Positions 36,681 through 39,562 of a stretch of 64,000 nucleotides of DNA are shown piece by piece; position 1 is the first letter of the stretch; each line of letters begins with the position of its first letter. Position numbers and translations under genes: made by a program. Source of the DNA: Fusobacterium perfoetens ATCC 29250 (lineage in GTDB: Bacteria; Fusobacteriota; Fusobacteriia; Fusobacteriales; Fusobacteriaceae); assembly GCF_000622245.1 (NCBI RefSeq), contig NZ_KK211416.1:62001-126000 (forward strand), given 5' to 3'. Below the pieces are notes generated by a model. That model did no database searches. It saw only the letters and a program-made list of their open reading frames with translations, and was not told where the DNA came from.

Positions 36681-38033
36681 TTATATGTTTAAAACGTCTT
36701 TATAAAGCAGCATAGCCATATAGAAATATATTACTAGAGCTAAAGCATCTACTATTGTTGTAACTAATGGTCCAGCCATTATAGCTGGGTCAAGTTTTAA
36801 TTTTTTAGCTCCAATTGGAAGTAATCCACCAACAAGTTTTGCTATTACAACTACAACTCCCAATGTTAAAGAAACTAAAAGGGAGATTTTTAAATCATTT
36901 TTTAAAATAAGTTTCATACGTAAAAAATTAACAAGTCCTAAACCTATACCAACAATCATACTAACTCTTAATTCTTTCCATAAAACTTTTAAGCAATCAC
37001 TATCTTTTATTTCTCCTAAAGCCATTCCTCTAATAACAAGTGTAGAAGATTGAGAACCAGCATTTCCCCCTGTATCCATAAGCATTGGGATAGCTGCAGC
37101 AAGGACTACCATTTGTTCAATAATATTTTCATATTTACTAATAATTGTTCCTGTAAAAGTAGCTGAAACCATTAAAACCAAAAGCCAAGTTAGACGATTT
37201 TTAGCTAGTTGAAATACAGATGAATCTAAATATTCCTCTTTACTTGGAGCCATAGCAGCCATTTTTTGGAAGTCTTCTGTATTTTCTTCTTCAATGGCAT
37301 CCACAACATCATCTATTGTGATAATTCCAACTAATATATTTTCTTTGTCAATAACAGGTAATACTGTTAAATCATATTTTTTAAATAAATCTATTGCTTC
37401 TTCTTGATTTGTAGAAGTTGTAACATATAAAATATTTTTATTCATGACATTTTCTATTAAATCATTATCATTTGAAATTAATAAATTTTTTAAAGAAATT
37501 TCACCAATAAGTTTTTTGTTTTCTGTTACATAAGCAACATCTATAGTCTCTAATTCTTCAACTTTTTTTCTTATAAATAAAAGACTATCTTTTACAGTCC
37601 AGTTACTTTTTAGAGAAAGATATTCTATTGTCATTAAACTTCCAGCAGAATCTTCCTCATAAGATAAAAATTGATTTATCAAAGAACGATTTTCATTTTT
37701 ATAGTTTTCTAAAACTCTTTTTACAACATTTGAAGGCATCTCTTCAATAAAATCTATCATATCATCAAAGTAAAGTTCTTCTAAAAGTCCTTGTAACTTT
37801 TCGTCATTGATAGAGCTTATTAATTTCATTTGCATATCAGGGTCTAATTCAGCAAATACTTCAGCTGCCCTTTCTTTATTAAGAAGTCTAAATAAAATTA
37901 TTAAATCTTTTTCATTTTCTTCGTTGTTTTCAAAAAATTCAATAATTTTTACAGGAGTTTCAGAGTTTAAAACTCCTTGTAATCTTTTTAAGTCTTTTTT
38001 TTCAAGAAGTTCTCTTACTATTTTTTCAAACAT
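36681..38033 (-). CDS. mgtE: Magnesium transporter MgtE
   Basis: 450 residues, standard MgtE length. The N-terminal helical domain (about 1-125) has MGTE_N repeats such as RAAEVFAELDPDMQMKLI; a CBS pair follows (about 130-250, with VLPVIDKENILVGIITIDDVVD); the membrane part (about 285-450) carries MLMDTGGNAGSQSSTLVIRGMALGEI and DPAIMAGPLVTTIVDALALVIYF, the pore region. It conducts Mg2+ inward, gated by the N and CBS domains. AGGAGG precedes the ATG. The 5' leader contains a small ORF and a hairpin and shows no M-box-sized structure. Confidence 0.96.
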   Translation of the reverse strand: MFEKIVRELLEKKDLKRLQGVLNSETPVKIIEFFENNEENEKDLIILFRLLNKERAAEVFAELDPDMQMKLISSINDEKLQGLLEELYFDDMIDFIEEMPSNVVKRVLENYKNENRSLINQFLSYEEDSAGSLMTIEYLSLKSNWTVKDSLLFIRKKVEELETIDVAYVTENKKLIGEISLKNLLISNDNDLIENVMNKNILYVTTSTNQEEAIDLFKKYDLTVLPVIDKENILVGIITIDDVVDAIEEENTEDFQKMAAMAPSKEEYLDSSVFQLAKNRLTWLLVLMVSATFTGTIISKYENIIEQMVVLAAAIPMLMDTGGNAGSQSSTLVIRGMALGEIKDSDCLKVLWKELRVSMIVGIGLGLVNFLRMKLILKNDLKISLLVSLTLGVVVVIAKLVGGLLPIGAKKLKLDPAIMAGPLVTTIVDALALVIYFYMAMLLYKDVLNI

Positions 38034-38044
38034 TTTTCCTCCTT

Positions 38045-38075
38045 TTACAGAGGAAAAAACATTATCCCTCTGTAA
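38045..38075 (-). promoter_or_regulatory. Hairpin between leader ORF and mgtE ribosome site
   Basis: A perfect nine-base stem TTACAGAGG / CCTCTGTAA with a 13-base loop. Its 5' arm starts one base after the leader stop codon and its 3' arm ends one base before the AGGAGG of mgtE. A five-codon frame (MFFPL, ATG at 38062) with a weak GAGG site lies within the hairpin. Confidence 0.72.
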
Positions 38076-38076
38076 T

Positions 38077-38124
38077 TCATATTAAATTTTTAATTGTTAT
38101 TTTACATTGGGGATAAGTATCCAT
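38077..38124 (-). CDS. Leader peptide ORF upstream of mgtE (15 codons)
   Basis: Predicted peptide MDTYPQCKITIKNLI. The ATG at 38124 has an ideal AAGGAG six bases upstream, stronger and better spaced than many genes here. It lies inside the transcript that starts near 38157, 33 bases before its ATG, and stops directly before the mgtE hairpin. The early acidic residue and proline recall the MgtL leader of Salmonella mgtA, which senses Mg2+ through ribosome destabilisation, but there is no sequence identity to rely on. Translation is inferred from the ribosome site only. Confidence 0.55.
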   Translation of the reverse strand: MDTYPQCKITIKNLI

Positions 38125-38163
38125 AATTTTCTCCTTATTTATAAATTTCTATTTAACTTAAGT

Positions 38164-38192
38164 ATTATATCATTTTTTATATTAAAAGTAAA
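38164..38192 (-). promoter_or_regulatory. Promoter of the mgtE leader (-35 TTTACT, 17 bp, -10 TATAAT)
   Basis: Minus strand TTTACT (38192-38187), 17 bases, TATAAT (38169-38164). Predicted transcription start near 38157, giving a leader of about 124 bases. Confidence 0.78.
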
Positions 38193-38332: not shown

Positions 38333-39562
38333 TTAACTTTCCTCTTTATATCTTCTAATCATATCTAAAACTTCCATATTTTCATCAAGAGTAATTCTTA
38401 CAGTAGAATTTGGATTAGCCACTGTAGTTTCCTCTTCATGTCCATTTTTACCGATTAAAGTCATTACAGGAAGTTTAATTTTTCTAGGGTCGTATTTAGG
38501 AGTAACAACTTCTAATTCTTCCCCAGTTTCTAATCTATTTCTTATAGCAAGTACATATTGATTATCTCCAATTTTATCAATTACTTTTGCAACTAGTTGG
38601 TGAGTTTGACTATAAGAATTTCTATCATTATAGTTTTGAGCTTCTGCTCCAGGTCTTCCATGATAGAATCCTTCTGTATATAATCTATGAGAAGTTGATT
38701 CTAATTCTTTTATCCATTTTTCTTCAAAAGAATAATTTCCAGCATAGTATTTATCAATAGCTTCTCTATATGTTTTAACAACATTAGCTACATAATAAAT
38801 CCCTTTCATTCTTCCCTCAATTTTTAAAGAATCTACACCAGCTTCTAATATGTCATCAATCATTCTTATTGTACATAAATCTTTTGAACTAAAGATGAAT
38901 GTTCCATGGTCATCTTCAAATACTGGCATATATTCTCCAGGTCTTTTTTCTTCAACTACAGAATATCTCCATCTACAAGATTGAGCACAATCTCCACGGT
39001 TAGCATCTCTTCCTGTCATATAGTTACTTAATAAACATCTTCCAGAAATAGACATACACATAGCTCCATGAATAAATACTTCAATTTCAATATCAGGAAC
39101 TTTAGCTCTGATTTCTTTTATATTTTCTAAAGATATTTCTCTAGCAAGAACAACTCTTCTAGCTCCCATATCTCTCCAAGCTTTTACAGACACCCAGTTT
39201 GTATTACTTGCTTGTGTACTTACACTAATTGATAAGTTTGAATTTTCTTTTACTATTTGGAAAACTCCTAAGTCAGCAACTATAACTCCATCAACATGAA
39301 TACTTTCTAAGAATTTTACATATTCTGGTAAATCTTCTAATTCTTCATTATGTGGAATTACATTTAAAGTAACATAAACTTTTTTTCCTAAAGAATGAGC
39401 ATACTCAACAGTTTTTGTAAGCTCTTCATCAGAAAAGTTATTACTTCCAGCTCTTAAGTTAAAAGCCTTTCCTCCTAAAAATACTGCGTCAGCTCCATAA
39501 TGGAAAGCCATTTCCATTTTTTCAATATTTCCTGCTGGAGCTAATAATTCAACTTTTTTCAT
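38333..39562 (-). CDS. Peptidase U32 family protein (tRNA hydroxylation / collagenase-like)
   Basis: About 409 residues. N-terminal ELLAPAGNIEKMEMAFHYGADAVFLGG, then HGAMCMSISGRCLLSNYMTGRDANRGDCAQSCRWRY, the Cys-rich U32 signature, and SLKIEGRMKG. Members annotated as proteases include TrhP, needed for 5-hydroxyuridine at tRNA wobble position 34; which role applies here is not decidable. I start at the ATG at 39562, which has AGAGGAGATGTA upstream; an in-frame TTG at 39589 lacks a ribosome site. Forty bases after dnaB, with no terminator between. Confidence 0.88.
   Translation of the reverse strand: MKKVELLAPAGNIEKMEMAFHYGADAVFLGGKAFNLRAGSNNFSDEELTKTVEYAHSLGKKVYVTLNVIPHNEELEDLPEYVKFLESIHVDGVIVADLGVFQIVKENSNLSISVSTQASNTNWVSVKAWRDMGARRVVLAREISLENIKEIRAKVPDIEIEVFIHGAMCMSISGRCLLSNYMTGRDANRGDCAQSCRWRYSVVEEKRPGEYMPVFEDDHGTFIFSSKDLCTIRMIDDILEAGVDSLKIEGRMKGIYYVANVVKTYREAIDKYYAGNYSFEEKWIKELESTSHRLYTEGFYHGRPGAEAQNYNDRNSYSQTHQLVAKVIDKIGDNQYVLAIRNRLETGEELEVVTPKYDPRKIKLPVMTLIGKNGHEEETTVANPNSTVRITLDENMEVLDMIRRYKEES

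Follow-up and report, generated by a model that had tools for sequence, protein, structure and literature searches.

We found that mgtE, a Mg2+ transporter gene in the 64,000-nucleotide stretch of Fusobacterium perfoetens DNA analysed here (the window), is preceded by a leader with a short open reading frame (ORF) and two mutually exclusive RNA folds, one of which hides the Shine-Dalgarno (SD) sequence of mgtE. The most probable reading, to which we assign a probability of about 0.72, is that this leader is a translational attenuator: the leader peptide would be the sensor and four RNA segments the switch, and low Mg2+ would turn mgtE on. When the leader is free of ribosomes, or when they run quickly to its stop, the SD would be paired to segment 3 (3:4, aided by 1:2) and mgtE would be off. 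Where ribosomes linger on, or drop off, the first codons (an acidic residue and Pro), segment 1 would be covered during synthesis of segments 2 and 3; 2:3 would then form before the SD is transcribed, and the SD would be free for translation of mgtE. Low cytosolic Mg2+, most likely the signal by analogy with known systems, would weaken ribosomes on such acidic/Pro N-termini (intrinsic ribosome destabilization).

The elements of the switch lie on the minus strand (Table 1). The mgtE start codon is the ATG at 38033 and, by its Pfam domains, the product is an MgtE transporter. The leader ORF, read from the sequence, runs from an ATG at 38124-38122 to a TGA at 38079-38077, one base before a 9-bp hairpin with a 13-nt loop (arms TTACAGAGG, 38075-38067, and CCTCTGTAA, 38053-38045); the hairpin in turn ends one base before the mgtE SD AGGAGG (38043-38038). 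The ORF with its SD, the hairpin, these spacings and the promoter all read as an earlier note on this DNA had described them. The transcript is expected to start near 38157, from a promoter whose boxes and spacing are identical upstream of the leader in relatives, although matches of such quality are no rarer in this AT-rich region than chance would give (13 vs 14.5 expected). Upstream of the leader region are a terminator-like hairpin (38280-38256) and a 418-aa ORF ending at 38333, which we take to be peptidase U32-like; no terminator was seen within the leader. Perfect 9-bp hairpins with at least four G/C give only five matches (three places) in the 64 kb, and ATG micro-ORFs of 8-40 codons after AGGAG also number only five; the combination of the two stands before mgtE.

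Table 1. Positions of mgtE, its promoter and the elements of its leader in the window.
Feature	Position	Strand	Basis
mgtE, Mg2+ transporter gene	36681..38033	-	MgtE_N, CBS and MgtE domains (Pfam)
Sigma-70-like promoter TTTACT-17-TATAAT	38164..38192	-	Consensus scan, 10/12; boxes and spacing shared by relatives
Leader ORF MDTYPQCKITIKNLI, SD AAGGAG upstream	38077..38124	-	Sequence; start, SD and N-terminus kept in relatives; changes mostly synonymous
Segment 1: UUAUCCC (Tyr-Pro codons), CAA, then UGUAA	38102..38116	-	Fold; CCC invariant in alignment A1
Segment 2: UUACAGAGGGAUAA, 5' arm of hairpin; partner is segment 1 (OFF) or 3 (ON)	38062..38075	-	Fold; 2:3 covariation
Segment 3: UUUUCCUCUGUAA, 3' arm of hairpin and anti-SD	38045..38057	-	Fold; covariation
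Segment 4: mgtE SD AGGAGGAAAA, paired to segment 3 in the OFF state	38034..38043	-	Fold

The preferred fold of the leader RNA is 1:2 + 3:4 and not the 2:3 hairpin. In this fold, the codon stretches UUAUCCC and UGUAA of the leader pair with UUACA and GGGAUAA, and a 3:4 helix (38057-38049 with 38042-38034) hides the mgtE SD. With codons 1-8 masked to mimic a ribosome, and with the RNA cut off immediately upstream of the SD to mimic a nascent transcript, 2:3 formed. Since segment 2 is common to 1:2 and 2:3, and segment 3 to 2:3 and 3:4, these elements would make up an attenuator of four segments with the SD as its output. All 11 Fusobacteriaceae leaders analysed have a minimum-energy fold that pairs the SD (3:4) and, with codons 1-8 masked, a nascent 2:3; 15 leaders of the Leptotrichiaceae fold with like topology (1:2 + 3:4, alternative 2:3), and in both families the SD lies in segment 4. 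The switch topology is well supported by computation, and in the folding model the 9-bp hairpin 2:3 is an anti-sequestor, which holds the anti-SD off the mgtE SD, rather than a guard.

To model the ribosome, footprints were placed codon by codon on eight Fusobacteriaceae sequences and the probability that the SD is unpaired was computed at equilibrium. For the window's leader this probability is 0.01 without a ribosome, 0.21-0.28 with one at codons 1-10, and 0.01 with one near the stop. L006, L009, L010 and L054 reach about 0.3-0.9 with a ribosome at codons 2-10, so that five of the eight sequences go from an SD opening of 0.01-0.02 to one of about 0.2-0.9 when the ribosome covers codons 2-10, and fall back to 0.01-0.02 when it is near the stop. 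In the remaining three (L004, L013 and L014) the SD is nearly closed at equilibrium even with a ribosome over the early codons, and the model there needs co-transcriptional trapping, with 2:3 formed before the SD is made. By this modelling, the ribosome position that matters is early, over codons 1-10.

Searches of the family and phylum took in 98 genomes of the phylum. Covariance model R1 had strong matches in 14 Fusobacteriaceae genomes, one per genome and all directly before mgtE: three of the same genus (g1; G000, G031 and G035), eight of Cetobacterium (g3), two of g2 (G001 and G002) and one of g11 (G048). Weak matches in six others (G008, G056, G067, G073, G075 and G077; E 6e-4 to 6e-3) were judged to be chance, and none of those looked at, in G008, G056 and G073, lies before mgtE. 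A search of genome contigs with the leader pattern returned eight stretches, four of them from Cetobacterium; the four in other phyla were taken as chance. The leader start, its SD and the N-terminus of the peptide are kept in relatives, where the N-termini are of the MDxYP (e.g. MDTYP), MEAGP and MGPDP types and the peptides include MDTYPKRTKLRKLQFNMSL, MDSYPKRTKNKNNLIYSL, MDSYPKRNVKNNNLIFVCRGKV, MDSYPQRLLKKLNR, MEAGPNYTKNIIKITL and MGPDPKQFIFLINN. A second covariance model had one match, before mgtE only, in each of 15 genomes of another family (f4), by inference the Leptotrichiaceae, whose leaders begin MNEE[VI]PEE, MNEEVPS or MNEETGRS with a TTG start. Comparison across relatives finds the leader ORF and hairpin of the earlier note conserved before mgtE.

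Shuffling the stretch from leader start to SD with dinucleotide content preserved (1000 shuffles for each of seven Fusobacteriaceae leaders) gave the switch topology by itself in 2.5-7% of cases. Topology together with an energy no higher than the observed one was seen in 0/1000 shuffles for six of the seven leaders and in 7/1000 for L013; for eight Leptotrichiaceae leaders, topology plus energy occurred in 0-0.7% of shuffles. Covariation of 2:3 was scored on seven distinct sequences, with the helix anchors set by hand on GG:CC. In this hand-anchored helix 92% of cells are paired and four of nine pairs have two-sided changes, and the score of 0.487 (vs 0.192 in shuffles) was equalled in 0/500 shuffles, with slid controls reaching at most 0.19. 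RNAalifold on the automatic alignment A1 recovered 3:4 and did not give 2:3 as a consensus, because spacing differences misplace rows, L014 above all; the hand-anchored helices were therefore used. Changes in the codons at the leader start are synonymous in 4/6 and 3/3 cases, against about 20% expected, these being small numbers. The ORF, the alternative helices, the conservation and the covariation are all results of computation.

In enterobacteria, ribosome-based sensing of Mg2+ by leader peptides is known for mgtA, mgtB and corA. It is by analogy with such systems that we infer translation of the leader, the direction of control, the Mg2+ signal and ribosome destabilization as the sensor. 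The tested system nearest in form is the Salmonella mgtQ-mgtB leader, in which an 8-aa ORF, with Asp as its second residue and its Pro codon CCC in segment 1, sets 1:2 + 3:4 against 2:3; disturbing 1:2, even silently, raises mgtB, and replacement of acidic residues lowers it, Asp2 being required and Asp2 and Glu5 together being needed for the effect (PMC8092293). The window's leader is alike in its short ORF before a Mg2+ transporter gene, in hiding the SD in 1:2 + 3:4 and freeing it in 2:3, in its single CCC codon in segment 1 and in Asp at position 2. It differs in belonging to another phylum and in having MgtE as its target and not the P-type ATPase MgtB of the mgtC operon; it heads its own transcript, whereas mgtQ lies inside an operon, its peptide is longer, and no sequence relation is apparent. 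Where mgtQ has two acidic residues, the window's peptide has only Asp2, with one Pro, which is weak for ribosome destabilization. The sensor is thus the weakest step of the proposed mechanism; strongly acidic leaders, with several Glu, are found in the Leptotrichiaceae only.

The MgtL leader of mgtA in E. coli and Salmonella, where ribosomes drop off at the acidic/Pro motif EPDP under low Mg2+ (PMC11282234) and higher Mg2+ restores elongation (PMC11552253), also has an N-terminal acidic/Pro motif and two mutually exclusive folds, and one Fusobacteriaceae leader begins MGPDP, close to EPDP. MgtL acts via Rho-dependent termination, whereas the switch point here would be the SD, and the SD-sequestering helix suggests control of translation rather than such termination. 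Erm/cat-type translational attenuators use the same logic of 1:2 and 3:4 vs 2:3, with a ribosome on the leader; they respond to antibiotics, and the target here is instead a Mg2+ transporter.

In an Rfam scan of the window and leader, the only match to pass the threshold was a tRNA; preQ1-II and lysM-TM7 scored weakly, which was taken as chance. The M-box riboswitch (RF00380), which also controls Mg2+ transport genes, is found in 14 of 61 genomes of the family, but its covariance model had no match in the window, the mgtE leader or the genome to which they belong. Relative G008 has an M-box (202558-202713, minus strand) upstream of a P-type ATPase of 883 aa encoded on that strand, so that Mg2+ transporter leaders of at least two kinds seem to be in use among the Fusobacteriaceae. 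This M-box target (locus L102) is MgtA-like (ORF 150-2801, minus), and no leader-type mgtE was found in G008. The mgtE motif of Thioalkalivibrio is likewise a structured RNA at the mgtE SD, but it is reported only from Thioalkalivibrio, as a riboswitch candidate (PMC11109978).

The same four-segment attenuator might answer to a signal other than Mg2+, such as slow rare codons (CCC Pro), charged tRNA(Pro), the ATP level or the general rate of translation. The Tyr-Pro codons sit exactly in segment 1, CCC makes up 1.6% of the Pro codons in the window's genes, and the single acidic residue of the window's leader fits such a signal, as does the response of Salmonella mgtM and mgtP to ATP and charged tRNA-Pro (PMC8092293). 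In mgtQ, however, CCC acts as RNA and not as Pro, a silent change to CCG having the same effect (PMC8092293). With strongly acidic leaders in the Leptotrichiaceae and mgtE always the target, we consider another signal unlikely. M-box type control is common among Mg2+ transporters, and Mg2+ itself could in principle stabilise 1:2/3:4, the ORF being a mere passenger or a translation standby. That the OFF fold is the more structured state is consistent with such a directly sensing RNA, and direct sensing is still debated for mgtA (PMC11552253); yet the leader has simple helices only, with no M-box-like core and no Rfam family above threshold, and its start, SD and peptide N-terminus are conserved with mostly synonymous change, which makes this explanation very improbable.

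The version of the earlier note would have the SD blocked by hairpin 2:3 and opened by a ribosome standing at the stop codon of the leader. It draws on the one-base spacings on either side of the hairpin, and we find it barely credible. The SD falls outside 2:3, its sequestration being by the 3:4 helix; the position of the stop relative to 2:3 is not conserved, the ORF of several Cetobacterium leaders extending through segment 2; and a ribosome at the stop leaves the SD only 0.01 open in the model. Such a ribosome would disrupt 2:3, and mgtE would thereby be switched off rather than on. A second micro-ORF noted in the hairpin, MFFPL, can be read there, but relatives do not conserve it, and we judge it to be a chance reading. 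The broader proposal of a leader-peptide switch at mgtE is supported by the conserved leader, the lack of a detected M-box and the Salmonella-type logic, although the earlier note had inverted the role of the hairpin and missed half of the device.

A maximum-likelihood tree of MgtE proteins joins the 12 leader-bearing rows of the Fusobacteriaceae in a single clade (100/99) and places them apart from a clade of 18 rows that lack leaders of the four-segment kind. The Leptotrichiaceae genes with leaders fall into a second group, interrupted by one row (G081) without a leader; no such leader was seen at the second MgtE type of this family (33% identical). Judged from these sequences, the leader may have had one old origin followed by losses, or several origins. 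We give roughly even odds to the wider idea that an acidic/Pro leader on which ribosomes are destabilized at low Mg2+, freeing the mgtE SD, is an old sensor of the two Fusobacteriota families that arose independently of enterobacterial mgtL and mgtQ. The literature searched, with most subscription journals outside it, yielded no description of a Fusobacterium mgtE leader peptide or of a leader peptide for a magnesium transporter in Fusobacteria. If the attenuator reading is true, the four-segment logic stands before an unrelated transporter family in a distant phylum, ribosome stability would have been used repeatedly as a Mg2+ gauge, and mgtE regulation in these Fusobacteria without an M-box would be explained. 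MDTYP, MEAGP, MGPDP and MNEEVPEE are natural variants for asking which N-termini make ribosomes sensitive to Mg2+.

Several mgtE loci depart from the common arrangement. In some Leptotrichiaceae (e.g. L104-L108) mgtE occurs as a tandem pair, and at four of these five the leader stands before the first copy; the mgtE that follows a MEAGP leader in G001 (L054) starts near the membrane domain, its N and CBS domains apparently missing. The MgtEs of G052, G039 and G053, which branch near the leader clade, have short ORFs of other kinds in front of their genes (MEGAGRSK..., MNRYIRAIIPSKLNYYFLR and MDDCIRRMDVMKKM). At the G039 locus (L031), the Pro-Ser codons CCC UCC of this different leader, MNRYIRAIIPSKLNYYFLR, are the anti-SD of a long hairpin that closes the SD, and the modelled SD opens with a ribosome at codons 6-16; this would be a simpler, two-segment variant, seen in one genome only. 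A conserved short ORF, MDDCIRR[LM]DVMK[KQ]M, precedes mgtE in G054, G053 and G058 (L051, L052 and L053), with no clear sequestration of the SD, which is unpaired at 0.58 and 0.88 in the two that were folded. In G052 (L048/L103), a short ORF, MEGAGRSKDKVPIEKNTHLRSRGPIPCFS, stands before mgtE with a GAGAAGC/GCUUCUC hairpin, and in the model the SD opens with a ribosome at codons 1-6.
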